A stretch of 64,000 bases of DNA, taken from NCBI GenBank assembly GCA_029262235.1, contig JAJCZU010000002.1:1-64000 (forward strand), given 5' to 3'. The first letter of the stretch is position 1; every line of letters begins with the position of its first letter. Below are positions 2 through 32,876 of this stretch, piece after piece. The position numbers and the translations under genes were made by a program. The notes below the pieces were generated by a model, which worked only from the letters and a program-made list of their open reading frames with translations, was not told the origin of the DNA and made no database searches. The stretch comes from Candidatus Eiseniibacteriota bacterium. Its GTDB lineage: Bacteria > Orphanbacterota > Orphanbacteria > Orphanbacterales > Orphanbacteraceae.

Positions 2-3000
2 CCGATCTTCAGATACTGCGATCTCTATGACAATACGCGCTACGAGTTGAATAACACGGAATCGAACCCGCTGGATGCACGTGAAAACTACTGGGGTGAT
101 ACAACGACAACGCGCATGAACGAGGGAGGAAACCCCAAGAACATTCCTGCAATACAGGACTTCTTCGACGTGCCTGGGAATGGGTTTGTCGACTATTCGA
201 ATTGGCAGCAGTTCTCGATTGGCTCCATCCGCTGGGACGGCGGAGGCGACGGAACCGCATGGGAGGACCCCCTCAACTGGGACCCGGATCGGCTGCCGGG
301 CATCGCTGATGACGTGATCATCCCGGCGATCGGTGACAACATCACGGTAGTGTCGGATACACTGGTGTTCCGTCTGACGATTGAAGAGGGCGCCACACCC
401 TGCTCGCTCTTCGTTACCGACACTCTTGGAGTGACAGATGGGCTCACAAACTCGGGCTACCTCTATGTAGACGAAAACGCGGCACTCGAGATTCTCGACG
501 GCAGCGTCTTCGCCAATGATTCTCTGGGAACTGTCGTGCTTGCGGGCGGTCATGTGATCGGCGACGGCTCATTCCGAAGCGACGGTGTCGTGCAGAAGAT
601 CGATCCGGGCGCGTTCCCGACCACGAGCCTGATCAGAATCGCGTTCTCCAACATCTTCGAGGACCCGGGCGATGGTTTCCTGACGGTGGACGAGGGGATC
701 CTGGAATTCGAGGACGCGTTCGTGAATAGCGGCTCCGTATTCGTGGCGCTTCCTGCGGAACTTAGGCTCGATCCGGGGGACGGCTTCCTGACGACGAACG
801 GCCGCTTTACGATCGACGAAGGCGGAACGCTGAATATCCCGGGCGCGGGTACGACGCTGCGCAACCTGATCGGCGGCACGTTTATCCTCGAGGGGGGCGA
901 CGTGATCGGCGCGGGCATTCTCGAGAACCTCGGTACGATGATCAAGCGCAACAACGGCGCACCGTCGACGTCGATTATTCAGACGCGCTTCTCAAACCTG
1001 TTCGACGATCCAGGCGACGGCTTCCTGACAGTCGGTGAAGGCGTGCTCTCGATTCAGGGCGATTTCCTGAACGAGGGAATCGTGAATGTTGACAGCGGAG
1101 CGGTGCTCGAGATCGCGCCGCCGTCGGCGCTCACGTCTGGCGGGGGCGAGGGTGAGGGCGGGGTCGCGAACGGATGGGTGAAGAACCTCTCTGGCATGGC
1201 CACGAACGATGCCGATGGCCGATTTACGGTGGCGGGAAGCACCTATGTCCGCTCCACGGCGTCGTTCACCAACGACGGCCTCTTCACGCTCGAATCGACG
1301 GGCGCGATCGCGAACGAAGGCACGTTCTTGCATCAGGAAAACGGAGTCCTCGAAGGCACGGGAACGTTTGACAACACGACGGGCAGCTTCACGGCGGACG
1401 GCGCGATCCGGCCGGGCGGTGCGCTCGGCGTTCTGAACTTCGCAGGCCCGTTCAGCCAGAGCGCGACGAGCGAGATCGAGATCGAGATCGGCGGCACGGT
1501 AGCCGGCGTTGACTACGACCAGGTCACGATTAACGGTCCGACCACACTCGACGGCGCAGTCTACGTTACGCTTGTGAATGGGTTCGAACCGCAGCTGGGC
1601 GACAGCTTCAGCGTGGTCACGATTGCGCCGGGGGCTTCGAAAACGAGCGCAGTGTTCGAGTGCTTCGGCGGCCTCGACGCGCCGGGCGGCATCACGCTCT
1701 ATCCGGTCGAGGGCCCGAACGTGCTGGCGTTCGTCGCGCGTGATACGAGCAACGGAAACACTCCGCCCGTAGCCGTTGACGATTTCGACAGCACGAACGC
1801 GGTGACCAAGATCACGCTCCCGGTTCTCGCGAACGATACGGACCCGGACACTCTCCAGGCGCTTCGCATCGCATCTTTGATTAAAACGGGCCTCGTCGGC
1901 AAGGCGCGCATCCTGCCCGGTGACATGACGATCCGTTACACGCCGAAAGTCGCGTTCACGGGCCGCGACACGCTTCGCTACACCGTGACGGATTGCGCAG
2001 GCGGCACTGACTCGGCGCTCGTAGTGATCGGTGTGGCGCGCGGGCCCGCGATCTGGAACGTGCCGGGCAACGCAGCGACGATCGCGGGCGGGCTTGCGCT
2101 TGCCTGGCCGGGTGACACAGTCGAAGTGGCGTCGGGCACATATAATGAGAGCGCGATCGCGTTGCTGCCGGGCGTCACGTTGCGTGGCAAGACAGGCGAT
2201 GCGCGCGATGTCGTGGTCGACGCCGGCGCTGTTGACCGCATCTTCCTCGCGGTCACGCTCGATTCCACCGCCGCGATTCAGTCGATGACGCTCAAGAACG
2301 GGAGCGCGGTGAACGGCGGCGCGATTCTGTGCGCCTCGTCGACCGTCCGGATCGAGAACTGCATCATCACAGCATGCACGGCATCCGGTTCGGGCGGCGG
2401 CATCCATGCCTCGAACGGCGCGCCGATCATCACGGGCACGCTCTTCCATGGCAATAATGCCGCGACCGGCGGCGGCATCTCGCTCCAGGCTTCGGATGCC
2501 CGCATCACGAACTGCACGTTCGTGAATGACACGGTGACAGTCAGCGGCGCCGCGCTCCAGATCGAGAACTCGTCGCCGCTCGTCGACCGCTCGATCCTCG
2601 CGTTCAACCTGGGGAGCGAAGCCGTCTCGTGCACGTCCTCCGCACCGCTGTTCTCGTGCACCGACATATACGGCAACGCGGGCGGTGACTGGACGGGCTG
2701 CATTGCAGGCCAGTCCGGCGTCTCGAACAACCTGGAGATCGACCCGTTCTTCTGCCAGCTCTCGGCTCCGACCGACCCGTATTCGATCGAGGCATCGTCG
2801 CCGTTCGCGAAGCCCGAGACTGTCCCGTGCGGCCTGATCGGCGCCCGACCGGCCGGATGCGCGATTGTCGACGTCACCACACCCGGCAACGTTCCGCTCA
2901 CCTATCGCCTGGACGCGAACCGCCCGAACCCGTTCAACCCGACGACAACGATCCGTTTCGCGCTTCCCCGTGCCGCACACGCGCGTCTCGAGATCTATGC

Positions 3001-3175
3001 CGTCAGCGGCCGTCGCGTCGCCACGCTCGTCGATACGCACATGAAAGCGGGCGAGTACGACGCGGTCTGGCACGGGCTCGATGCCCGCGGACGTTCGGTT
3101 GCCTCGGGCATCTACTTCGCGCGACTGACTGCCGGCGACTTCACGTCGGTTCGCAAGATGATCCTGATTCGATAA
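2..3175 (+). CDS. Secreted beta-helix protein with FlgD-like C-terminal sorting domain (5' truncated)
   Basis: The reading frame is open from the first codon at base 2, so the true start lies outside the window. Visible parts in order: a parallel beta-helix fragment, a long region of repeated D-P-G-D-G-F-L-T segments (three copies in the first third), a cadherin/Big-like module with P-V-A-V-D-D and L-A-N-D-T-D-P-D, a second right-handed beta-helix rich in N/G/I repeats, and a C-terminal FlgD-like Ig domain that begins NRPNPFNPTTTIRF and ends RKMILIR. This terminal domain is the type used in FCB-group bacteria for type IX-like secretion and surface anchoring. I infer a large surface or secreted adhesin, or a polysaccharide-binding protein. 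No catalytic residues were recognised. The next gene is 215 bp away, so no operon is implied. Confidence 0.85.
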   Translation, partial: PIFRYCDLYDNTRYELNNTESNPLDARENYWGDTTTTRMNEGGNPKNIPAIQDFFDVPGNGFVDYSNWQQFSIGSIRWDGGGDGTAWEDPLNWDPDRLPGIADDVIIPAIGDNITVVSDTLVFRLTIEEGATPCSLFVTDTLGVTDGLTNSGYLYVDENAALEILDGSVFANDSLGTVVLAGGHVIGDGSFRSDGVVQKIDPGAFPTTSLIRIAFSNIFEDPGDGFLTVDEGILEFEDAFVNSGSVFVALPAELRLDPGDGFLTTNGRFTIDEGGTLNIPGAGTTLRNLIGGTFILEGGDVIGAGILENLGTMIKRNNGAPSTSIIQTRFSNLFDDPGDGFLTVGEGVLSIQGDFLNEGIVNVDSGAVLEIAPPSALTSGGGEGEGGVANGWVKNLSGMATNDADGRFTVAGSTYVRSTASFTNDGLFTLESTGAIANEGTFLHQENGVLEGTGTFDNTTGSFTADGAIRPGGALGVLNFAGPFSQSATSEIEIEIGGTVAGVDYDQVTINGPTTLDGAVYVTLVNGFEPQLGDSFSVVTIAPGASKTSAVFECFGGLDAPGGITLYPVEGPNVLAFVARDTSNGNTPPVAVDDFDSTNAVTKITLPVLANDTDPDTLQALRIASLIKTGLVGKARILPGDMTIRYTPKVAFTGRDTLRYTVTDCAGGTDSALVVIGVARGPAIWNVPGNAATIAGGLALAWPGDTVEVASGTYNESAIALLPGVTLRGKTGDARDVVVDAGAVDRIFLAVTLDSTAAIQSMTLKNGSAVNGGAILCASSTVRIENCIITACTASGSGGGIHASNGAPIITGTLFHGNNAATGGGISLQASDARITNCTFVNDTVTVSGAALQIENSSPLVDRSILAFNLGSEAVSCTSSAPLFSCTDIYGNAGGDWTGCIAGQSGVSNNLEIDPFFCQLSAPTDPYSIEASSPFAKPETVPCGLIGARPAGCAIVDVTTPGNVPLTYRLDANRPNPFNPTTTIRFALPRAAHARLEIYAVSGRRVATLVDTHMKAGEYDAVWHGLDARGRSVASGIYFARLTAGDFTSVRKMILIR

Positions 3176-3180
3176 TCATT

Positions 3181-3212
3181 CGACTGCCCGACTGCCCGAC
3201 TGCCCGACTGCC
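3181..3212. repeat. 8-bp tandem repeat, four copies
   Basis: Four exact head-to-tail copies of CGACTGCC follow five bases after the exoprotein stop codon, and a C-rich stretch runs to about 3250. A minisatellite-like slippage tract with no visible coding role. Confidence 0.9.
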
Positions 3213-3390
3213 GCCCCACCCCGGGGCCGCCCCCGACCCCCACGCCCCACGCCTTCCGGCTCCGGGTTCCGCCGTCCGGCCGCTCTGATTTCCGGCCCGA
3301 CTCCGCTGGCCCGCATTCGCCTCCGCGTCTATACTGTGCGGACAGGATTCACCCCAATCGAAAACCAAACGCACGCAGGAGGCTTCTCAT

Positions 3391-4704
3391 ATGGCTCCGC
3401 CGATCATGAGCGATCATTTCCAGAACCGCAAACCGTCGCCGATTCGGGCCGCGCAGCTGCGTTATCTCGAACGCAAAGACGGCACGGAAGACGTGAACGT
3501 GGCGATCGGAAACGTATCGCTCCCGATGCACCCGGCGATGATCGCGCGCATGCGGGCGATCGGCGACGCGGGGAGCCCGTTCAAAGACGGCGTGGTTCGC
3601 TACACGCTGACGGCAGGCGCGGTGGAAACGCGGGCGGCGTTCCTGAACGTAATCGCCAGCAGCGGCTACGCGACCGACGGGCTGCACGTGCTGATCACGG
3701 ACGGCGGGAGCGCGGCGATGGAGATCGCCGAACTCGGCACGTCGGGCCCCGCGGGCGGATCACGCGGCCCGGTTCTGCTGATCGACGCGGCGTACACGAA
3801 TTACCAGGCGTTCGCGAAACGCATGGGGCGCGGTACGGTTTCGGTAACGCGCACGCTCGGCGATGACGGCAAGTTCTCGCTCCCGAGCATGGGCGAAATC
3901 GAAAAAACGATTCTGGAACACAAGCCGAGCGCGCTGGTGGTGATCCCGTTCGACAACCCGACCGGCCAGTTTTACGAGCAGGAGTCGATCGTGGAACTCG
4001 CGCGCCTCTGCGTGAAGCACGACATGTGGATCATCAGCGACGAAGCGTACCGCGAACTGCAGTACACGGGCGCGAAGGGCTCGAGTGTATGGGCGCTGAG
4101 CGAGAGCGATGTCCCCGGCATCACGGGGCGCCGCATCGGCATCGAAACGACAAGCAAAGTGTGGAACGCGTGCGGGCTCCGTGTCGGCGCGCTCGTGACC
4201 GACAACCTCGAGTTTCACAAGAAGTCGGTCGCGGAATACACGGCGAATCTCTGCGCGCCCGCGATCGCCCAGTGGATCTTTGCGGCGATCGCAGACGAGA
4301 GTCACGCGGATCTAAAGGCGTGGTACGCGAAACAGCGCGCGTACTATTCGAACATGCTCGTTTCGTTCACGAACGATCTGCGCGAGCGTCTGCCGGGCGT
4401 CATCGTTTCGTCGCCGGACGCCGCGATCTACTCGGTGGTGGACGTCCGCAATCTCGTGAGCCCCGAGTTCGATGCCATGGACTTCGTGCTGTTCTCGGCA
4501 AGCGAAGGCAAAGTGTCGATCGACGGGAAGGATCTCACGCTGCTTGTTGCGCCGCTCGCCGGCTTCTATCAGATGCCCGCGGGCAAGCCGAACCCCGGCC
4601 GCACGCAGATGAGAATCGCGTATGTGGAGCCGCCGGATCGCATGGCGATCGTTCCGAAGCTGTTCGCGGATCTCTTCAAGCAGTACATGGCGGCGAAAGG
4701 GTAG
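3391..4704 (+). CDS. PLP-dependent class I/II aminotransferase
   Basis: A 437-residue fold-type I aminotransferase. The AGGAGG Shine-Dalgarno about 8 bases before ATG 3391 fixes the start. Family motifs are all present: D188-N-P-T-G for substrate and cofactor contact, S-D217-E-A-Y220 for the PLP ring, and T-S-K256-V-W-N-A-C-G-L-R-V-G, in which K256 should form the internal aldimine. The protein should be cytoplasmic. The amino-group donor and acceptor cannot be named from sequence; aspartate- or LL-diaminopimelate-type enzymes share these motifs. It stands alone, with C-rich DNA upstream and a promoter-like stretch downstream. Confidence 0.88.
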   Translation: MAPPIMSDHFQNRKPSPIRAAQLRYLERKDGTEDVNVAIGNVSLPMHPAMIARMRAIGDAGSPFKDGVVRYTLTAGAVETRAAFLNVIASSGYATDGLHVLITDGGSAAMEIAELGTSGPAGGSRGPVLLIDAAYTNYQAFAKRMGRGTVSVTRTLGDDGKFSLPSMGEIEKTILEHKPSALVVIPFDNPTGQFYEQESIVELARLCVKHDMWIISDEAYRELQYTGAKGSSVWALSESDVPGITGRRIGIETTSKVWNACGLRVGALVTDNLEFHKKSVAEYTANLCAPAIAQWIFAAIADESHADLKAWYAKQRAYYSNMLVSFTNDLRERLPGVIVSSPDAAIYSVVDVRNLVSPEFDAMDFVLFSASEGKVSIDGKDLTLLVAPLAGFYQMPAGKPNPGRTQMRIAYVEPPDRMAIVPKLFADLFKQYMAAKG

Positions 4705-4726
4705 GGGCCACGGTCCTGACATGAGC

Positions 4727-4756
4727 TTGATCGTGACGGCTGGCGTACGGTACCAT
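4727..4756 (+). promoter_or_regulatory. Possible sigma-70-type promoter for the GT-C gene
   Basis: TTGATC (4727-4732), an 18-bp spacer and TACCAT (4751-4756). The -10-like hexamer lies exactly 8 bp before the in-frame TTG 4765 (GTG 4768), so a leaderless start is possible. Pattern match only. Confidence 0.25.
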
Positions 4757-4827
4757 CGATTGCGTTGGTGATCGAGGACGCAGCACTTCATCGGTCGACG
4801 CCAGGACGACACGGGATCGGGAACCGC

Positions 4828-6480
4828 ATGTGGCACAGTCTCGATACGCGATTGCCTGCGGCCTTGCTGATACTGGCAATCGCTTGCGGGATATTTCTGC
4901 GGGTCGACGGGATCTCCGACGCGTTCTTTTACGGCGACGAATACCACAGCATCGGCACCGCACAGTTACCCTGCTCCGAGATCGTAACCATCTTCGACGA
5001 CAAGGGGTCGCACGTCCCGCTTCCCCTCCTGCAGCACTTCTTCGCGAACCTTTTCGGCCCCTCCGTTTTCGTTTATCGCCTGGTCGCGATCATCCCGGGG
5101 ATCCTGGCGCTGCTCGTGTTTTATCCCGCGGCGAAGAGGCTCGTCGGCGAGGCGCCGGCGTGGATCGCCACGCTGGCCATGGCCACGAGCCCCCTGCTCA
5201 TTTTCTACTCCCGGTTCGCCCGTTCGTACGGCCTTGTCGTACTTCTGGGGCTTCTGCTGGTCATGCTCCTGCCGCGCGTTCTGGCGCCGGGTAAACGCTC
5301 CCTGCCCCTCGCGATTCTGGCCGCTCTGGTTGCGGGATTGATTCCGTACATTCATCTCTGCGGCATCGGTCTTGCGGGAGGCATCGGCATCGCCTGCCTG
5401 GTGCAGGCATGGAAGATCCACGGATCTCCCCGGGGCCTCGGTCTTCCGCTTGCGATTTTTGGCGCTGCCGCGCTGCTGACGCTTGTTCTCTACCTGCCGG
5501 TTCTTGATCCTCTGCGGGAATACATTGCCAAGGTGCCCGAGGATGAGCAGGCGCGGCCTCTCGGGATCCTCGGTATCTCCGACCTCCTTGCCGGCGGGCG
5601 CATTGCGGGAATGGTGATGCTGATTGCGCTGCCGGCGGCGACGGCCCTGCTCTATGTACGGAAGCACCCGGGCGCACTCTGGCTCACCGGCGCCGCATTC
5701 GGACCGGTGCTGACTCTGGCCGCCATGCGCCCCCACGGGATGGAGTACGCGTACGCACGTTACCTGCTGCCCGCTCTTCCGTTCCTGCTCATGATGCTTG
5801 CTTGGCTGCTCGTCGAGGCGCTCCCGCAAAGAAAGCAAACCGCGCGCGCGCCGCGGTGGCCCGCCGTCATTCTCGGAACGGCGCTCATTGCCGCGAACTT
5901 CATCACGGGGCCGCTGTCCCCCCGGATTCCGGACGACGGTCCTTACTCCAGCACTTATATCAGCATGAAGGAACTGCCCGCCTTCGACGAACCTTTCCCC
6001 GGAACGCCCGCGTTCTACAAGACCCTCGCGGAAGAAGAGACGGCGGTACGGATCATCGAGGCTCCGTCGCGCGCCCACAGGACGCTTCTGCTCTACCGCA
6101 ACTACTACATGCAGCACAGTAAGCGTACCGTTCTCGGTCGCCTGGGTTCGGAGGACAGAGTTCTCGACGGCCCGTATCTCGATCTGGATCTCATACAACC
6201 GTCTACTGAAAACGGCGCGGACTACCTGATCCTTCATATGGATGTCGCCCGCGAGGTGAACGACTACTGGGGATTCGTATTCGGTGAGTCCTGGCCCGGT
6301 CACGAAGTGCCGGGCGACGAGGGTTTCATGACGCGGCACAACCGAAGGAATCCCCCCGGCCTGGAACTGAAACAAAGAACAGCGGACATGGCTGTTGCCA
6401 TCCGCGAACGATTCGGCCTTCCGATCTTTCAGGATGACTACATTCGCGTCTGGGATATCCGCCGGTCATCCCGCGGGTAA
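4828..6480 (+). CDS. GT-C fold membrane glycosyltransferase (family 39/ArnT-like)
   Basis: A polytopic inner-membrane protein of about 550 residues. The first hydrophobic helix is followed by the loop F-F-Y-G-D-E-Y, the place where GT-C enzymes carry the acidic catalytic motif. At least eight further hydrophobic helices follow, then a soluble C-terminal periplasmic domain of about 170 residues. By family it should transfer a sugar from a polyprenyl-phosphate donor to a lipid or protein acceptor on the outer face. ATG 4828 was chosen because it places the first membrane helix at the N-terminus. In-frame TTG 4765 and GTG 4768 would add about 20 polar residues and have a promoter at leaderless distance. 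The downstream sulfatase-fold gene is in the same direction 93 bp away and may act on the same surface glycan. Confidence 0.72.
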   Translation: MWHSLDTRLPAALLILAIACGIFLRVDGISDAFFYGDEYHSIGTAQLPCSEIVTIFDDKGSHVPLPLLQHFFANLFGPSVFVYRLVAIIPGILALLVFYPAAKRLVGEAPAWIATLAMATSPLLIFYSRFARSYGLVVLLGLLLVMLLPRVLAPGKRSLPLAILAALVAGLIPYIHLCGIGLAGGIGIACLVQAWKIHGSPRGLGLPLAIFGAAALLTLVLYLPVLDPLREYIAKVPEDEQARPLGILGISDLLAGGRIAGMVMLIALPAATALLYVRKHPGALWLTGAAFGPVLTLAAMRPHGMEYAYARYLLPALPFLLMMLAWLLVEALPQRKQTARAPRWPAVILGTALIAANFITGPLSPRIPDDGPYSSTYISMKELPAFDEPFPGTPAFYKTLAEEETAVRIIEAPSRAHRTLLLYRNYYMQHSKRTVLGRLGSEDRVLDGPYLDLDLIQPSTENGADYLILHMDVAREVNDYWGFVFGESWPGHEVPGDEGFMTRHNRRNPPGLELKQRTADMAVAIRERFGLPIFQDDYIRVWDIRRSSRG

Positions 6481-6573: not shown

Positions 6574-8001
6574 GTGAGCAGACGCGATTTTCTGAAATGG
6601 GGAATCCTCGGATCCGTCGCCACGGGAATCGCGCCCGGTCTCCTCCTGTCGGGTTGTGGAAACCGGGGTCGCTCGAAACGTCCCCACGTGATCTTCATCA
6701 CCGTCGATACGCTGCGCGCCGATCATCTCGGCTGCTACGGCTATGCACATCCCACTTCGCCGAGCATCGACAGGTTCGCCTCTGGCGCGCGCCTGTTCGA
6801 AAACTGTCTGTCCCACGCGCCCGTGACATCCTCGAGCCTCGCCAGTCTTCTCAGCGGCTTCCTGCCGCATGAGACGAGGGTCTTCGCCAATTCCCCGCTC
6901 CCGCAGCAAGTGAGACTTCTCCCGGAGATCCTGAGTCCCGAAGGCTACGCGACAGTCGGCATCGTCAGTAACTACGTGCTCCGGAAGAAGAAGGGGTGGT
7001 TCGAAAAGTTCGACGTCTACGATGACGATATGGACAGTGCCGAGTCGATCAGGACGACGCCCGAACGAATCGCGGTCGACACGACCGACAGGGCGATTGA
7101 ACTGCTGCGCCGCCATTCCGAGGACCCGCTCTTCCTATGGGTCCACTATCAGGATCCCCACGGCCCCTATACTCCGCCCGATCGCTACGGTGAGTTGTTC
7201 GCGGGGACGACCGGGCAGAGCCGCACGCTGAACGTCAACGAATCCGTCAGTGGGTACGGGGGCATCCCTTCCTATCAGGCACTGGGCGAGCAGAGGGAAT
7301 TCGATCACTACGTTTCTCAATACGACGGCGAGATCAGATACCTGGACGACAATCTGGACCGGCTGTTCTCGGAACTGGTTCGGCTGGATATTTACGACGA
7401 CTCGCTGATCGTGTTCACCGCGGATCACGGCGAAGGAATGGGCGAGCACGATTACTACTTCGCGCACGGCGAGAACCTCGGCAACGGCCTCACGCACGTT
7501 CCGCTCATTATAAAGACGCCGCACTCTATAAAGACGCCGCGTTCTTCGCCCGGAAGAGAGACGGAGTTCGTACAGCACCTGGATGTAGTCCCCACGATAC
7601 TGAGTGCCCTCGCGATCGAAACCGATGCCAGGTTCCGGGGACTCGACCTGCTCGCTCCGCGACCGGGCACGCGCGAGATCTTCGCCGAACTGGAACTGCC
7701 CAAGAAATGGGCCCGGGACCCGGTCATGTTCTCGATTGTCGTCGATGGCATGAAGCTCGTGAGCCGCCCGACCAGGCCGGCCACGGAACAGGCGCAGCTC
7801 TTCAATCTCGAGTCCGACCCGCGGGAAGAGCACGACCTGATTAACGATCCGGCGTTTCGGAGTCGCGTGGAAGATCTGAGCGCCCGCCTGAAGCGTATTG
7901 CCGCCGAAGACAGACTGGCACTGGACATCGAGAGCACGCCCGAGAACCTGACCGACGAAGAAGTGAAGAACCTCAAGGCGCTTGGCTACATCAACAATTG
8001 A
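6574..8001 (+). CDS. Tat-exported sulfatase-fold lipoprotein (alkaline phosphatase superfamily)
   Basis: The N-terminus carries a clear twin-arginine motif, S-R-R-D-F-L-K, and a lipobox L-L-S-G-C28, so the protein should be folded in the cytoplasm, exported by Tat and lipidated. The metal-site motif F-I-T-V-D45-T46-L-R-A-D50-H-L-G is classic for sulfatases. The usual formylglycine signature C/S-x-P-x-R is absent: the aligned region reads A-P-V-T85-S-S-S-L-A-S-L-L, with Thr as the likely nucleophile, as in phosphotransferase members of the superfamily (LtaS, phosphoethanolamine transferases). T-A-D-H-G-E-G and H-G-E-N lie downstream as expected. I would therefore call it a phospho- or sulfo-hydrolase or transferase of unknown substrate. 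GTG 6574 was chosen because it starts right before the Tat motif. An 18-bp tandem duplication lies at about 7507-7542. Confidence 0.82.
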   Translation: MSRRDFLKWGILGSVATGIAPGLLLSGCGNRGRSKRPHVIFITVDTLRADHLGCYGYAHPTSPSIDRFASGARLFENCLSHAPVTSSSLASLLSGFLPHETRVFANSPLPQQVRLLPEILSPEGYATVGIVSNYVLRKKKGWFEKFDVYDDDMDSAESIRTTPERIAVDTTDRAIELLRRHSEDPLFLWVHYQDPHGPYTPPDRYGELFAGTTGQSRTLNVNESVSGYGGIPSYQALGEQREFDHYVSQYDGEIRYLDDNLDRLFSELVRLDIYDDSLIVFTADHGEGMGEHDYYFAHGENLGNGLTHVPLIIKTPHSIKTPRSSPGRETEFVQHLDVVPTILSALAIETDARFRGLDLLAPRPGTREIFAELELPKKWARDPVMFSIVVDGMKLVSRPTRPATEQAQLFNLESDPREEHDLINDPAFRSRVEDLSARLKRIAAEDRLALDIESTPENLTDEEVKNLKALGYINN

Positions 8002-26128: not shown

Positions 26129-27865
26129 ATGAACAACAAGTCACTGGATGCCGCCTGGATCCGAGAGCAGATCATCGGCGTGAATGCCACGTTTGAATCT
26201 CCATTCGGCGAAAGGCTGATGACGTACTGTGATTACACGGCATCGGGACGGTGTCTGCAGTTCGTTGAATCCTATCTGCAGAGCCTGCAGAGAATCTACG
26301 CCAACACGCACACGGAAGACGATTTCACGGGGCGCAGCATGAGTCAGCTGCTGCACGAGGCGGAAGAGTCGATCAAGAAGTCCGTCAACGCGGGACCGAA
26401 CGGACGCATCATCGCTTCGGGCACGGGCGCCACGGCGGCCATCTATAAACTGCAGCAGCTCATCGGCGTCGCACTGCCGCCGGCGACCCGCCAGAATATC
26501 GGCGCCATGCTTGCCGGATCTGAGCAGAACGGCGCGGGCGTGGCGATCGAGGAACTGTTCGAAAAATCCCAGCCGGTGGTCTTCGTCGGCCCCTACGAAC
26601 ACCACTCGAACGAGATTTCCTGGCGTGAATCGCTCGCGACGACCGTTGAAGTGCGTATGGACGAGAATGGAAGTATCGACCTGGAACATCTCGAGGAGCT
26701 GCTCCGGGATCCCGCCTGGCAGGGCCGGCTACGCGTCGGCAGTTTTTCCGCCGCGTCGAATGTCACCGGAATGCGTTCCGACGTGCGCGGGATCGCGAGC
26801 CTGCTGCACAGGTACGACGCGCTGGCCTGTTTCGATTTTGCGGCCTGCGCTCCTTATGTCGCGATCGACATGAATCCCGAGCCGGAGGGCGACGAAGACC
26901 CTTCGATCGATGCGGTCTTTCTTTCTCCGCACAAGTTCCTGGGGGGTCCCGGCGCCAGCGGCGTGCTGGTTTTCAACGAGCGAATCTACCATCGGGAACT
27001 GCCGCCCAGCGTCAGCGGCGGGGGAACGGTCGACTATGTGGGCCTGGACGGGCAGGACTTTATCCGCGATATCGAAGAGCGTGAGAAAGCCGGCACGCCC
27101 GGCGTTCTGCAGACGCTCAAGGCGGGGCTGGTCTTCCAGATCAAAGATCGCGTGGGCGTGGAGTTCATCAGCAGGAGAGAGCACGAACTGACCGCGCGCG
27201 CATTCGGCAGGTGGAACGAGGATCCGCATATTGAAATGCTCGGCAATCCGGATGCCGGTCGACGTGTCGGGATTCTCTCCTTTAACATCAAATGTGCGCC
27301 CGGCGGTTATCTGCACCACAAATTCGTGACGGCACTGCTGAACGACCTGTTCGGCATTCAGTCACGTGCCGGTTGTTCCTGCGCCGGGCCCTACGGACAC
27401 AGGCTTCTGGGGATCGACCGGCACACTTCGGAGCGTTTCCGTGGCGTCGTAAAGCAGGGGCACTGCGGCATGAAGCCGGGCTGGTGTCGCGTCGGTCTGC
27501 ACTGGGTCATGGACGATGCGGAGGCAGACTTCGTGATTGACGCCGTCCTGTTCATCGCCAGTCACGGTCACCGGTTCCTGCCGCTCTATGATTTCGACCT
27601 GAAGACGGGGACCTGGACGCACAGGCAGGCAACGACCGCGTGCAGCGCGTTCTCGCTGGACGCTGCCCTGAACGGCGACGTGGCGGATTCTGCCGCGCTG
27701 ACACTTGCCGCGCGCAAGCGTTTTTACGATCGCTCTATGAGTGAAGCGATGCGCCTGGCCCGGGAACCCGACAGCGAAACTGCCGTGCCGCTCGAAACGC
27801 TCGGCGGCGAGCTCGGTGAGCTGCAGTTTTTCGCACTGCCGGCCCGGGCCACGGATCAGAACTGA
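26129..27865 (+). CDS. Class V aminotransferase / cysteine desulfurase-like PLP enzyme
   Basis: A 578-residue fold-type I PLP enzyme. Visible motifs: T-Y-C-D-Y-T-A-S-G-R at the N-terminus, A-S-G-T-G-A-T-A-A-I for phosphate binding, H-H-S-N for the PLP ring, D-F-A-A and S-P-H-K269-F-L-G-G-P-G with the Schiff-base lysine, and R-A-G-C-S-C-A-G-P-Y-G-H, a Cys-rich loop shared by a large uncharacterised branch of class V enzymes. The extra C-terminal 120 residues are absent from SufS/NifS. Whether it is a desulfurase is uncertain. AAGGAA precedes ATG 26129. It converges with the radical SAM gene: the two stops are 2 bp apart. Confidence 0.83.
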   Translation: MNNKSLDAAWIREQIIGVNATFESPFGERLMTYCDYTASGRCLQFVESYLQSLQRIYANTHTEDDFTGRSMSQLLHEAEESIKKSVNAGPNGRIIASGTGATAAIYKLQQLIGVALPPATRQNIGAMLAGSEQNGAGVAIEELFEKSQPVVFVGPYEHHSNEISWRESLATTVEVRMDENGSIDLEHLEELLRDPAWQGRLRVGSFSAASNVTGMRSDVRGIASLLHRYDALACFDFAACAPYVAIDMNPEPEGDEDPSIDAVFLSPHKFLGGPGASGVLVFNERIYHRELPPSVSGGGTVDYVGLDGQDFIRDIEEREKAGTPGVLQTLKAGLVFQIKDRVGVEFISRREHELTARAFGRWNEDPHIEMLGNPDAGRRVGILSFNIKCAPGGYLHHKFVTALLNDLFGIQSRAGCSCAGPYGHRLLGIDRHTSERFRGVVKQGHCGMKPGWCRVGLHWVMDDAEADFVIDAVLFIASHGHRFLPLYDFDLKTGTWTHRQATTACSAFSLDAALNGDVADSAALTLAARKRFYDRSMSEAMRLAREPDSETAVPLETLGGELGELQFFALPARATDQN

Positions 27866-27867
27866 CG

Positions 27868-29133
27868 CTACCGGGAAGCCGCCCCGGCTTTTACCAGAAA
27901 ATCGAGCAGGCCGGGCTGCGCCAGCCCGGCAGCCGAATCGTCACCCCCGCCGACCATTGCCAGCAGTTTCTGCATCTCCGACGTCATCATGCCCTCGCGC
28001 GGAGCGACGGGAAAGCGATCGCGATAGCGGTGTGTCGTCTTCATGAAGGCGCACGCGAAATCGGGCATACGGTCGGGGTCCCGATTGCCGGGAATGTTTC
28101 CGATCGACATCGGGCATATTCCGCAACGATCGACGTATTCGCACTCCCCGCATTTTCCATACGAAGAGTATTTGTTCTCCTTCGCGTGAAACATCCCGGT
28201 CTTGCGGCTGGCATCCGGGTACGCGGCGAGACCGGTCTCGAAATCCCCGCCGTCGATCGGCCCGATGCTCATGGAATCGATCTGCTCCTTGAGCCAGGCG
28301 GAACGAAAACGCTGGTACGAACCCGCGAACGTGATGCACCCGTGGGTATCGCCGTTCACGTCGACCGCGACGCCGCGACCGAAGGGAGCGCCACACATCG
28401 GAATCGACTCCTTGCTCCGTTCCTTCTGTTTACTTCCCTTCCCGCCGAAGAGTGCGAGTGGCATCTGTCCGGTCCTGCGGAAATGCTTCACGCACAAATC
28501 GAATACGACCTTCATCATGCGATCGAGTTTCGCGATGTCGTCCACCTGCCACTGCGGCGCGTAGTTGACAGGCGCGACCGCAATGTGCGGAACGCCCTTC
28601 TCGAGAAAGTACGCAATGGAGTCGGGAAGGAACTCGATCGTTTCGGGCGTGATCGTGATCGCGATGCGGAGATCGTGTGTTCCGCGCCCCGATTCGTGAG
28701 CGCTCATGCGATCGAGCAGACCGTCGAGCGCGTGAAACGAGTTCCTGCGCCTCAGATCCTGCATCGCGGGAACGCCGTCGAAGCTGAGCTGGATTTCGAA
28801 TCGATGATGAACGAGAAACGCGAGGATCTCGTCTGTCAGAAGGAGACCGTTCGTACTGACGGAATACGCGGCGCTTCGACCCGGTTCCAGCTTGTCTTCC
28901 ACATAGGCAACGGCCTTCTGGAGAAGCGGGAATTCGAGAAGAGGCTCGCCTCCCCAGAATCCGACGCGGATGCTTTGTGACTCGGAGGCGAGCAATCGGT
29001 CGAGTGCGGACCGCATCGTGCCCCACGCCATTTCGCCCGACTTCTTGTCGTTCTGATAGCAGTAACCGCATCGCAGATTGCACTCTGATGTCAGAATCAG
29101 ATCGATCGAACGAAGCGCGGCAGTCGTCGCCAT
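27868..29133 (-). CDS. Radical SAM/SPASM peptide maturase-like enzyme
   Basis: A 421-residue enzyme. The radical SAM cluster motif is C18-N-L-R-C22-G-Y-C25, followed by G-F-W-G-G-E-P and S-V-S-T-N-G. The C-terminal half has the seven-cysteine SPASM pattern: C247, C266, then C328-x2-C331-x5-C337-x2-C340, and C361, expected to hold two auxiliary 4Fe-4S clusters. Radical SAM-SPASM enzymes typically modify ribosomal peptides (thioether or carbon-carbon crosslinks) or act as sulfatase maturases. Its ATG is one base after the stop of an 88-residue Cys/Pro-rich peptide gene, so the peptide is the probable substrate. A role for the sulfatase at 6574-8001 is unlikely because that protein lacks the Cys/Ser target motif. 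Confidence 0.9.
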   Translation of the reverse strand: MATTAALRSIDLILTSECNLRCGYCYQNDKKSGEMAWGTMRSALDRLLASESQSIRVGFWGGEPLLEFPLLQKAVAYVEDKLEPGRSAAYSVSTNGLLLTDEILAFLVHHRFEIQLSFDGVPAMQDLRRRNSFHALDGLLDRMSAHESGRGTHDLRIAITITPETIEFLPDSIAYFLEKGVPHIAVAPVNYAPQWQVDDIAKLDRMMKVVFDLCVKHFRRTGQMPLALFGGKGSKQKERSKESIPMCGAPFGRGVAVDVNGDTHGCITFAGSYQRFRSAWLKEQIDSMSIGPIDGGDFETGLAAYPDASRKTGMFHAKENKYSSYGKCGECEYVDRCGICPMSIGNIPGNRDPDRMPDFACAFMKTTHRYRDRFPVAPREGMMTSEMQKLLAMVGGGDDSAAGLAQPGLLDFLVKAGAASR

Positions 29134-29134
29134 C

Positions 29135-29401
29135 TCAGGAACTCGAAGGGTCGATGGGCGAACACACGTTTCCGACCAGCGGCTCGCACATTCCCTGCGT
29201 GAGAACGGGGATCGGAGGACATTCGGGAATCGGCATCGGACCGATCGTGATCCTGAGCGTTTCGACGATCGGGTTGTCGTCGGTCAGATCGATGTCCTGT
29301 GCGGGATCGAGGGTGTTCAGAAAGTCGAGCGCTTCATCGAGTTGATTACGCAGACACTGGAAGGCCCGTTTCGCATCCTTCACGCTGATCGTCCGGCTCA
29401 T
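29135..29401 (-). CDS. Candidate RiPP precursor peptide (88 aa, Cys/Pro-rich C-terminus)
   Basis: A strong AGGAGGT precedes the ATG at 29401. Residues 1-40 look like a helical leader (S-V-K-D-A-K-R-A-F-Q-C-L-R-N-Q-L-D-E-A-L). The C-terminal third is rich in proline and holds three cysteines in the series P-E-C61-P-P-I-P, G-M-C72-E-P and N-V-C80-S-P, ending S-S-S. C16 is the only other cysteine. There is no signal peptide and no known domain. It starts 12 bp after the kinase stop codon, and its own stop is followed after one base by the radical SAM ATG. This placement and the Cys-rich tail suggest a ribosomally made, post-translationally modified peptide. Modification type and cleavage site are not predictable from sequence. 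Confidence 0.75.
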   Translation of the reverse strand: MSRTISVKDAKRAFQCLRNQLDEALDFLNTLDPAQDIDLTDDNPIVETLRITIGPMPIPECPPIPVLTQGMCEPLVGNVCSPIDPSSS

Positions 29402-29413
29402 GTCACATACCTC

Positions 29414-32122
29414 CTAGTAGGGTTGCTTTGTGGTTTTGAGAACCCACACATCTCCCTGCGGATTCTCGCGCTCATAGACGACGAACCTGCCGTCGCTCGA
29501 GAGATCGAAGTAACCGGCGGCATCGCTTCCGCCGAAAGTCAGTGCCACATTCTGCAGGTGCTGGTCATCCTGGTCGTTCCGCGCCTCCTGGTCGTCCTGC
29601 AAGTCCTGGTCGCCCGGCGCCGCCGCAATCCGTCGCAGGCTCATCGTTTCGCCTTCCCAGAGGCCGCTGATCAGCAGGCTTTCGTCGTCTGGTGCCCATC
29701 TCTTTCGCTGCGCCCCGTTCGACGCGGGAATCTCACGGGCGTTCCCGCCATCGGCGTTGACCGTCCAGGCGGAGTATCCGTTCTGCGTCGACACGCTGAA
29801 GGCGACCCGGGAACCGTCGCGGGCCCAGACCGGATCGAACGCGCTGAGACCGGCGGGGGAAAGGGGCTCGCAATCCGCGGTGCGCGCGCCGTCCTTCACA
29901 GGGGCGGTGTAGATCCGCGGGGAACCGTCGCGATCCGAAAGAAACGCAATGCGCGTGCCGTCGGGTGACCAGGCGGGATGGGCGTCGAGGCCGTCGTGCT
30001 CCGTGAGTCGCGCGGGGCGCCCCCCGTGTGCGGGGACGATCCAGATATCCCGCTTGCCGGCGTCCACGCGGAAGTAGGCGATCCAGCGCCCGTCGGGGGA
30101 GAACACGGCCTGCGACGAAACTCCCGATTGCTCGAGCAGCGGACGGGGGGGCCCGCTCGGCTGCAAGTCTTCGAGGGGCTGGACCCAGAGCGTGGCGTGG
30201 TTGCCGCGTCCCCAGGCGGTGAACACGATCTGATCCAGAGAGGGGGAGAAGGCGGGGGCCCGCCCGAGAGTAAGCCCGGGGATCGCGCGCTCGTCGCCGG
30301 TCTGAAGATCGTGAATGACGATTTCGTGGCGCGACGTGCCCGTTGCGTACGCAAGGCATCGGCCGTCCTTCGACACGTTCGGGTGATGCTCGAAACCGCT
30401 GCCGAGCGTGACGCGCTGCACGCGGCCGTCCTTGACGCGCACTCTCCAGATCGAGAGTGGCCCGGCTCGATAAGACGTAAAGTAAATATGCTGCTGGTTG
30501 GCCGACCAGGCAGGATCGCAGTCCCAGCCGGCAGTCTCCGTCACCGAAGCGGGGGCGCCTCCGGCAACGGGCACGATGCGCAGTTCTCCCCATTCGGAGT
30601 AGCAGATCGAGGCGCCGTCGGGCGACCATGCGGGCTGCGCATGATCACGCAATGTTTCCTCTGTCAACCATCGCCACTCTTCCAGGTTCTCGAGGTTCGC
30701 GATCAGAATGCGCTTGTAGGTCGCGGGGGGAGTGAGCCTGGCGAATGCGATCCATCGGCCGTCGGGCGAAAGGGCGGGGTCCGTGGCGCTTTCGATCATG
30801 AGAGTGGCTTCGCCGCCGAGGGGTCCGGTCTTCCAGATGCAGTCGGATCCGGTCCGATCGGACACGAACAGGATACCTGCTCCGTCCTGCAGCCATACGG
30901 GACTCCGGTCCGTCGCGGGATCCCGCGTTACGACGAGCGGCTCGCCTCCATTCAGGTCGGAGATCAGCACATCGAGGTTCCCGTTGACGTTCGACGTGAA
31001 CGCCAGACGCTCGCCGTCCGGCGAAAGCACGGGCTCTCCTTCCCACCAGGCCGTGCGCGTGATGGGGATCGGATCCCCTTCGGGAAGACGATCGGGATCG
31101 CGAATCACAATCCAGGTGAAGGTGGCCGCGATGAGCGCGACCGAAACGAGGCCGAACACGAGCGGCAGCGTCCGGTAGGCAGGTTCGGGCACGGGCGTGA
31201 TCCCGTGGTCGGTGTTGTACTCGTCGGCTTCAAGCCGGCGCTGGAGCGAGCGCAGGTCGACGAGTAGATCCGCGGCTGACTGATAGCGTTCCTTCGCGCG
31301 CTTCTGCAGAAGCTTCTGCACGATGCGGTCGAGTTCGCCGGGAATGCCGGACGCATAGCGCGAAAGAGGGTCGGGCACCTGGTGCAGAATCGCCTCGAGC
31401 AGAACGGCGCCTTCCGTTCTCTGTGCGAAAGGGGCGGTTCCCGTGCACATTTCATAGATGACCGCACCGAGGGCATACAGGTCGCTTCGTTCGTCCGCTG
31501 TCTTGCCAAGGGCCTGCTCGGGGGGCATGTAGTGCGGCGTCCCCATCGCCGCTCCCTTCTCGGTCAGCGTGGTGGTCTGGCCGGAGGTGTGGGCGTGGTC
31601 CCCCTTGCGCTCGATGGTGCGCGAGAGTCCGAAGTCGCTCAGCATCGGGCATCGGTCGTCGCCCAGCAGAATGTTGCGCGGGTTCACGTCGCGATGAAGC
31701 ACGCCTTCCCTGTGTGCGTAGTCGATCGCGTTGGCGAGTTGAGTGGCGAGCTGGATCGCTTCGAGCGGGGGGAGTTTGCCGCGATGAAGCAGAAGATCGC
31801 TCAGGTTCTCGCCCTTGATCAGCGGCATGACGAGGCAGGGGAGGCCCGCGTGTTCGAAGGAGTCGAGAACGGGAACGATATTGCGGTGCGCCAGACGGGA
31901 TGCGTTTTTGATCTCGCGGAGAAAGCGCTTGCGTGCGCGCGGATGTTCCGCAAGGTCCGCCCAGGGAAATTTGAGGGCGACATTGCGGTCCATTCTCGAG
32001 TCATGCGCCCGGAAGACGACGCCCATGCCGCCGTGACCCAGCTCATCGCGAATCTCGTACGGACCAACCGTGTCACCAGGATGGACCGGAGATTCGTGGT
32101 TACGATCTCCATTGGGGGACAT
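29414..32122 (-). CDS. Membrane Ser/Thr protein kinase with extracytoplasmic TolB-like propeller
   Basis: A 902-residue Hanks-type kinase. Residues 20-295 are the kinase domain: P-loop G-H-G-G-M-G-V-V (29-36), K51, catalytic loop H143-R-D-V-N-P-R-N150, D163-F-G and P-P-E. The lysine of H-R-D-L-K-P is replaced by asparagine, a variant also seen in other bacterial kinases. One membrane helix follows at about 320-341. The remaining 550 residues form ten or more PD40 blades (W-S-P-D-G-x-x-I-A-F) outside the cytoplasm. The family pattern is a sensor kinase whose propeller binds an external ligand. It is the first gene of a three-gene operon with the peptide and the radical SAM enzyme. No Shine-Dalgarno is present and TATACT lies 7 bp before the ATG. 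Confidence 0.92.
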   Translation of the reverse strand: MSPNGDRNHESPVHPGDTVGPYEIRDELGHGGMGVVFRAHDSRMDRNVALKFPWADLAEHPRARKRFLREIKNASRLAHRNIVPVLDSFEHAGLPCLVMPLIKGENLSDLLLHRGKLPPLEAIQLATQLANAIDYAHREGVLHRDVNPRNILLGDDRCPMLSDFGLSRTIERKGDHAHTSGQTTTLTEKGAAMGTPHYMPPEQALGKTADERSDLYALGAVIYEMCTGTAPFAQRTEGAVLLEAILHQVPDPLSRYASGIPGELDRIVQKLLQKRAKERYQSAADLLVDLRSLQRRLEADEYNTDHGITPVPEPAYRTLPLVFGLVSVALIAATFTWIVIRDPDRLPEGDPIPITRTAWWEGEPVLSPDGERLAFTSNVNGNLDVLISDLNGGEPLVVTRDPATDRSPVWLQDGAGILFVSDRTGSDCIWKTGPLGGEATLMIESATDPALSPDGRWIAFARLTPPATYKRILIANLENLEEWRWLTEETLRDHAQPAWSPDGASICYSEWGELRIVPVAGGAPASVTETAGWDCDPAWSANQQHIYFTSYRAGPLSIWRVRVKDGRVQRVTLGSGFEHHPNVSKDGRCLAYATGTSRHEIVIHDLQTGDERAIPGLTLGRAPAFSPSLDQIVFTAWGRGNHATLWVQPLEDLQPSGPPRPLLEQSGVSSQAVFSPDGRWIAYFRVDAGKRDIWIVPAHGGRPARLTEHDGLDAHPAWSPDGTRIAFLSDRDGSPRIYTAPVKDGARTADCEPLSPAGLSAFDPVWARDGSRVAFSVSTQNGYSAWTVNADGGNAREIPASNGAQRKRWAPDDESLLISGLWEGETMSLRRIAAAPGDQDLQDDQEARNDQDDQHLQNVALTFGGSDAAGYFDLSSDGRFVVYERENPQGDVWVLKTTKQPY

Positions 32123-32302: not shown

Positions 32303-32392
32303 GGAGAGATGCCAGAGCGGTTGAATGGGGCGGTCTCGAAAACCGTTGTCGGGGTAACTCGACCGGGGGTTCGAATCCCCCTCTCTCCGCCA
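32303..32392 (+). tRNA. tRNA-Ser (anticodon CGA)
   Basis: GGAGAGA pairs with TCTCTCC, the discriminator is G and CCA is encoded. The anticodon loop is CTCGAAA, with a class II variable arm. Confidence 0.95.
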
Positions 32393-32414
32393 CATGCAAC
32401 CGTTTGCAATCGTC

Positions 32415-32504
32415 GGAGAGATGCGAGAGTGGCTGAATCGGCGTGCCTGGAAAGCACGTGTAGGGGTAACTCTACCGAGGGTTCGAATCCCTCTCTCTCC
32501 GCCA
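32415..32504 (+). tRNA. tRNA-Ser (anticodon GGA)
   Basis: GGAGAGA pairs with TCTCTCC, the discriminator is G and CCA is encoded. The anticodon loop is CTGGAAA. It lies 22 bp after tRNA-Ser(CGA), which it resembles closely. Confidence 0.95.
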
Positions 32505-32520
32505 GTACATAGTCGATTGT

Positions 32521-32596
32521 GGGGATGTAGCTCAGATGGGAGAGCGCTGCCTTCGCAAGGCAGAGGCCGGCGGTTCGATCCCGCCCATCTCCACCA
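32521..32596 (+). tRNA. tRNA-Ala (anticodon CGC)
   Basis: GGGGATG pairs with CATCTCC (one G-U), D-arm GCTC...GAGC, anticodon loop TTCGCAA on a 5-bp stem, T-loop TTCGATC, discriminator A and encoded CCA. Confidence 0.93.
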
Positions 32597-32609
32597 CTTT
32601 TCTTGATAG

Positions 32610-32876
32610 AGTCGTGCTAGACGGGGAGTTAGCGGTGCCCTGAACCCGCAATCCGCTCCAGCGGGGTTGAATTCCTCCTTTCGGCCCGTCCAATCGAATG
32701 CCGGGAACGCCGTGAGGCACTGATGGCCAGGTCCCGCGCGACAGGTTTCTGTGAACCCCGTCAGGACCGGAAGGTAGCAGCGGTAAGCAGCAATTCCTGT
32801 GCGCCGCGGGTATGCTTGGTCGGAGTCTCGATAGCGATCTACGATTCGCGCGGTCGGGACAACGGGAGGTGCACGG
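32610..32876 (+). ncRNA. ffs: Signal recognition particle RNA, large bacterial type
   Basis: The apical SRP54-binding loop is unmistakable: GTCAGGACCGGAAGGTAGCAGC around 32760-32780. Upstream, GTGCTAGACGGGGAG, AGCGGTGCCC and CCGCAATCCGCT (32613-32660) match the Alu domain of the Bacillus-type large SRP RNA, and the 3' end GAGGTGCACGG pairs with the 5' GTCGTGC. A T-rich stretch follows at 32877-32887 and probably ends transcription. Length of about 267 nt is close to the 270 nt of Bacillus and far from the 114 nt of 4.5S RNA. dnaX starts about 30 bp later. End positions are approximate to a few bases. Confidence 0.88.

Follow-up and report, generated by a model that had tools for sequence, protein, structure and literature searches.

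A kinase-linked radical SAM/SPASM module with a candidate precursor peptide, conserved in at least four bacterial phyla

The locus raises the question of whether a membrane Ser/Thr kinase, a small cysteine-containing peptide and a radical SAM (rSAM)/SPASM enzyme, encoded side by side, form a real functional unit or merely a chance arrangement. To answer it, a 64,000-nucleotide stretch of a Candidatus Eiseniibacteriota bacterium genome (contig JAJCZU010000002.1, positions 1 to 64,000, assembly GCA_029262235.1; hereafter the window) has been analyzed in silico and compared with related loci. The layout described in the original prediction has been confirmed. Its interpretation, a new peptide maturation system tied to a kinase, is supported in part: the three genes are a repeatedly inherited unit, whereas modification of the peptide and its link to the kinase remain inferences.

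The three genes of the locus

All three genes are located on the minus strand, successively kinase (29414-32122), peptide (29135-29401) and enzyme (27868-29133), with gaps of 12 bp and 1 bp. The enzyme gene lies just outside the interval 29135-32122 assigned to the system in the original prediction. The kinase, a protein of 902 residues, possesses a Hanks-type kinase domain at residues 22-281 (31280-32059; Pkinase, 1.6e-43), in which the characteristic elements have been identified: (i) the Gly loop GHGGMG at residue 29; (ii) VALK at residue 48; (iii) HRDVNPRN at residue 143, where the usual Lys of HRDxKPxN is replaced by Asn; (iv) DFG at residue 163. A single predicted transmembrane stretch, found as the hydropathy maximum, covers residues 320-340 (31103-31165), and it is followed by a PD40/TolB-like propeller at about residues 345-902 (29417-31090), with eight PD40 stretches (4.2e-48). 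The propeller is predicted to lie outside the cytoplasm, the side being inferred from the single transmembrane stretch.

The 88-residue candidate precursor peptide is preceded by a perfect AGGAGG Shine-Dalgarno sequence (29410-29415), which overlaps the kinase stop codon and lies 8 nt before the ATG, while the enzyme starts one base after the stop of the peptide. The peptide has four cysteines, one more than the three originally reported. The additional C16 lies in a predicted N-terminal helix (residues 7-29, 29315-29383; pLDDT about 90), whereas C61, C72 and C80 are found in a low-confidence, Cys/Pro-rich tail (residues 55-88, 29138-29239), the candidate core, each in a C-x-P motif (CPP, CEP and CSP, respectively). 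The enzyme of 421 residues has a radical SAM domain (Pfam Radical_SAM, 3.4e-11) with the CxxxCxxC motif at residues 18-25 (C18, C22, C25; 29059-29082) and a C-terminal SPASM region with seven cysteines (247, 266, 328, 331, 337, 340 and 361; 28051-28395), the number expected for two auxiliary clusters. The motif and all seven cysteines are invariant in 20 sequences.

No signal peptide has been found, and, in agreement with the original prediction, no transporter or protease is adjacent in the window. The family Peptidase_M64 is absent from the whole genome, although an M64 metallopeptidase follows the enzyme in four relatives. With only 4 of 22 loci carrying it, M64 as a fixed fourth gene has been rejected. 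An adjacent exporter pair has been seen in one relative only, 68 bp upstream of the kinase (locus L023; L-numbers denote loci and G-numbers genomes). A leader protease and an exporter, which are not a strict requirement of RiPP systems, are thus missing beside the window genes.

Conservation of the module and of its kinase

A direct sequence search with the peptide returned only itself, in its own genome and in its phylum, as it diverges too fast, and relatives were therefore found through the enzyme. The enzyme was detected in 3 of 7 genomes of the phylum of the window, in a Vicinamibacteria MAG, in 2 of 379 genomes outside the phylum, then in 3 of 20 genomes in the phylum of one of these and in 1 of 5 in the phylum of the other, and in 12 of 396 Acidobacteriota, or 13 with a better profile, the sample outside Acidobacteriota being thin. 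In all 22 loci found with this enzyme subfamily (20 genomes, at least four phyla), the enzyme is preceded on the same strand by a PD40-propeller Ser/Thr kinase and, between them, by a small Cys-containing ORF. The identity of the enzymes to that of the window is 28-47% for the 21 loci compared, which indicates old conservation of gene order and not recent copying. The 22 enzymes form a clade with 100/100 support against the sister loci. It had been suggested beforehand that a lack of joint conservation, or of purifying selection on the small ORF, would speak for a chance arrangement; the three genes are conserved together, and the small ORFs of the sister clade are under purifying selection (dN/dS 0.11-0.53), no pair within the clade of the window being close enough for that calculation.

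The kinase is a distinct subfamily that goes with the enzyme. In a search of 17 genomes with the window kinase, the module kinase is the best full-length match in every genome with the module (360-730 bits), although 3-53 other kinases match at 1e-40. The exception is genome G004, where an orphan paralogue, with no such enzyme in its neighbourhood, has an equal or slightly higher score (728 against 711 bits). Other kinases fall to about 310 bits or less, almost all by the kinase domain alone, apart from a contig-end fragment in G393 (386 bits). Four genomes of the same family without the enzyme have only kinase-domain matches (1e-42 to 1e-62). The distances between enzymes and between kinases correlate (Mantel r 0.39, 3 of 5000 permutations); however, the two trees agree only in part, in several groups but not for L006, which is placed differently. 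As a control, 20 other rSAM/SPASM loci of Acidobacteriota, the next in rank, have a kinase within about 5 kb in only 2 cases.

The sister enzymes (146-210 bits, below the 418 bits and over of the module, with L123 at 288) were intended as an outgroup without the kinase. Nevertheless, all 15 loci inspected are adjacent to a large signalling protein: a kinase-TPR protein convergent with the enzyme (seven loci), a Reg_prop/Y_Y_Y propeller protein with a C-terminal kinase divergent from it (three), or a TPR protein directly upstream, in the place of the kinase, with a probable DNA-binding end (five). The N-terminus of the latter reads like a helix-turn-helix by eye, while Pfam finds only TPR or FlgO; the receptors scanned with Pfam were those of L124, L125, L128, L131, L133 and L136. 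Twelve of the 15 loci have a small Cys-containing ORF directly before the enzyme. What stays constant is therefore peptide and enzyme, and what changes is the attached receptor. The layout, which was not recognized in the original prediction as one already known, is a recurrent theme. Such exchange makes a plain biosynthetic cluster with an accidental kinase unlikely and fits a signalling role for the product.

The related alternative, an ordinary RiPP natural product or bacteriocin whose production is regulated by a kinase that never meets the peptide, is considered unlikely. The exchange of the sensor type in the sister clade would fit it, and rSAM RiPP clusters next to quorum-sensing genes have been described in streptococci (PMC11002830). 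However, most loci have no exporter, immunity gene or dedicated protease, and the kinase is the first gene of the same operon and co-diverges with the enzyme rather than being a generic regulator. In the streptococcal systems the regulator is a cytoplasmic Rgg and not a transmembrane Ser/Thr kinase, and the enzyme families are different.

Candidate precursor peptide and enzyme class

In every locus the slot between kinase and enzyme holds an ATG-started ORF of 68-137 residues, nearly always with a GGAG-type Shine-Dalgarno sequence and always with at least one Cys, some having one only. Neither Pfam nor NCBIfam assigns a family to any of the 22 peptides, and their identity to the window peptide in the full alignment is 14-29%. 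A 26-residue helical block, scored with the own locus of each peptide left out, lies above all 252 control windows from real proteins in 11 of 22 peptides and above at least 94% of them in 17 of 22, whereas 5 of 22 lack a recognisable block. It is worth noting that the starting blocks were chosen by eye, which favours the 15 peptides used; of the seven not used, four still exceed 95% of the controls. The block is usually N-terminal, but lies after the Cys/Pro part in L009, L017, L018 and L023. Pro is enriched at position +2 (13 seen, 3.9 expected) and +3 (11 seen, 4.0 expected) from Cys. L008 has a perfect tandem repeat, with two copies of GTVRWYGGCPPP, and L016 has two tandem peptides. The CPP motif shows only weak clustering on the enzyme tree (21 of 500 shuffles as low) and none on the kinase tree. 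These features, a leader-like part shared by most and a hypervariable core, give the look of a genetically linked precursor peptide. The possibility that the small ORF is a spurious frame or an unrelated gene, suggested by the very low identity between peptides, is remote in view of the filled slot in 22 of 22 loci, the shared block and the purifying selection in the sister loci.

The enzyme belongs to the peptide- or protein-modifying rSAM/SPASM group, in a subfamily without a curated name. The PapB ranthipeptide maturase (NF047865; freyrasin, precursor PapA) is likewise an rSAM/SPASM enzyme with a small Cys-containing peptide. Its model is the best hit, in number and significance, for all 20 complete sequences, but the window enzyme scores 143.8 bits against a cut-off of 340 and thereby falls outside the family, and a membrane kinase is always present in the loci described here. 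The Cys-X3-Asp/Glu pattern of PapB substrates (PMC9413430) occurs once in the window peptide (C80-S-P-I-D84) and is not a shared pattern in the relatives. The predicted structure (pLDDT 86.6) is nearest to CteB (5why, E 8e-16), ChlB and anSME. In common with the CteB/SCIFF (thermocellin) system, there is a seven-Cys SPASM region; however, the identity is 19%, no six-Cys SCIFF peptide is present, and the enzyme starts almost at its rSAM core, so that the N-terminal leader-binding domain possessed by CteB is lacking. Formylglycine formation as in anSME (C-x-P-x-R) was considered because of the C-x-P motifs and rejected, since no Arg follows in the window and C-x-P is not universal. Tyramine excision by a splicease (XYG motif) was likewise rejected, as WYGG occurs in L008 only.

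Two further systems have been compared. The TOMM kinase/cyclase fusion (TIGR03903) also places a Ser/Thr kinase domain in a peptide-modification cluster, but it matches the window kinase domain only, at 128.1 bits against a cut-off of 705.75, and involves a cyclase fusion and azole chemistry, without a radical SAM enzyme or propeller. In quinohemoprotein amine dehydrogenase maturation, the rSAM/SPASM enzyme QhpD acts on a small Cys-rich partner of a beta-propeller protein. By analogy, the small protein described here could be a subunit cross-linked by the enzyme and packed onto the kinase propeller, and the QhpD-type model TIGR03906 does match all 20 enzymes over the rSAM core. This reading is very unlikely: the match covers only residues 4-130 and is far below the cut-off (101 against 453 bits), no dehydrogenase genes are present here, the peptides diverge far more than kinase or enzyme although a subunit should be conserved, and the sister clade mostly has TPR instead of a propeller.

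A possible receptor kinase with its own encoded peptide

The best explanation, held with moderate confidence, is a RiPP-like maturation pair, related to PapB/CteB but outside those families, coupled to its own receptor-type kinase. The analysis establishes the conserved unit and its age, the reality of the small, fast-diverging gene, the class of the enzyme and the association of the kinase subfamily with it. The identity of the peptide as substrate is well supported, whereas the modification itself, its chemistry, binding and signalling are inferred, and export and phosphorylation are hypothetical. In this view, the three proteins are made from one operon, the peptide at a higher level because of its strong Shine-Dalgarno sequence. 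The enzyme would bind the helical part of the peptide and modify the Cys/Pro-rich part, most likely by forming thioether links from the cysteines in the manner of PapB and CteB, which is the default guess; ranthipeptides as a class are defined by a thioether from Cys to a non-alpha carbon. The mature peptide would then be the partner of the kinase, most likely a ligand read by the external propeller, so that the cytoplasmic kinase domain signals when the peptide is present. The missing route to the outside is the main weakness of this model, and a shared operon does not prove ligand and receptor.

Alternatively, the modified peptide may stay in the cytoplasm as a target or regulator of the kinase domain, the kinase being set by an unrelated outside signal and either phosphorylating the peptide or being held by it. 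The absence of an export signal or transporter in the window supports this reading, as does the sister clade, where the propeller is replaced by TPR and the kinase by a probable DNA-binding end while peptide and enzyme stay, so that the outside propeller is not the constant feature. It is nevertheless regarded as unlikely, since the propeller is predicted outside, the hypervariable, Cys/Pro-rich core fits a secreted or ligand-like product better than a conserved regulator, and the M64 peptidases, found beside four modules, look like lipoproteins in L008 and L016, which points outward.

Full-text literature searches returned no description of such a module, which is weak evidence of novelty because coverage was partial and left out subscription journals and preprints. 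The parts are of known kinds, while the obligate tie to transmembrane kinases appears to be new. The broadest reading, which is doubtful on present evidence, would be a widespread bacterial signalling family in which a transmembrane Ser/Thr kinase is paired in its operon with a peptide ligand made active, through post-translational cross-linking, by a radical SAM enzyme, with relatives in which the same peptide/enzyme pair is plugged into TPR kinases, propeller kinases or DNA-binding receptors.

To our knowledge, no ligands of bacterial Hanks-type kinases with external propellers are known, although some genomes examined here hold dozens of such kinases. A kinase subfamily that always travels with its own candidate ligand and the enzyme that matures it would make that question directly testable. 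The module also provides a new, clearly bounded rSAM/SPASM subfamily with paired candidate substrates, including one whose core is duplicated, which is a convenient handle for working out the chemistry.

Genes adjacent to the module

In the analyzed window, the gene of the radical SAM enzyme is convergent with a class V aminotransferase gene (26300-27865; PF00266, 1.4e-33), located only 2 bp away and not seen in the related loci. Three tRNA genes and a large SRP RNA (32303-32876) are located on the plus strand, upstream of and divergent from the module, and a dnaX-like ORF overlaps the annotated 3' end of the SRP RNA at its first in-frame start. In four modules of related loci, metalloproteases of the M64 family (IgA peptidase) are encoded directly after the enzyme (L006:8490-9782, L008:8766-10544, L016:4721-6595 and L038:4866-6926). 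These proteins are lipoprotein-like in L008 and L016, whereas the family is absent from the window genome. In locus L023, two ABC exporter-like genes (1391-5312) end 68 bp upstream of the module kinase, and this is the only locus with a transporter next to the module on the same strand.

Variation of the kinase

The catalytic loop of the window kinase (31671-31696) reads HRDVNPRN, with Asn in place of the Lys usual in HRDxKPxN. The L008 kinase has HRDINPRN, while L006 possesses the usual HRDLKPGN. An orphan close paralogue of the module kinase, without enzyme or peptide, has been identified in genome G004 (contig C46, 230063-232699; locus L079:6043-8712), followed by a sorting-signal type surface protein.

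Peptides and sister enzyme loci

The L008 peptide (7167-7454) contains two perfect copies of GTVRWYGGCPPP, apparently a duplicated core. In the peptides of L009, L017, L018 and L023 the helical block lies C-terminal to the Cys/Pro part, and the order of the leader-like and core parts is thereby reversed or doubled. The sister radical SAM clade of Acidobacteriota (loci L124-L138) also sits beside signalling proteins, which represent three architectures: kinase-TPR, Reg_prop/Y_Y_Y-kinase and probable HTH-TPR. In 12 of these 15 loci there is a small ORF ending in a Cys motif.
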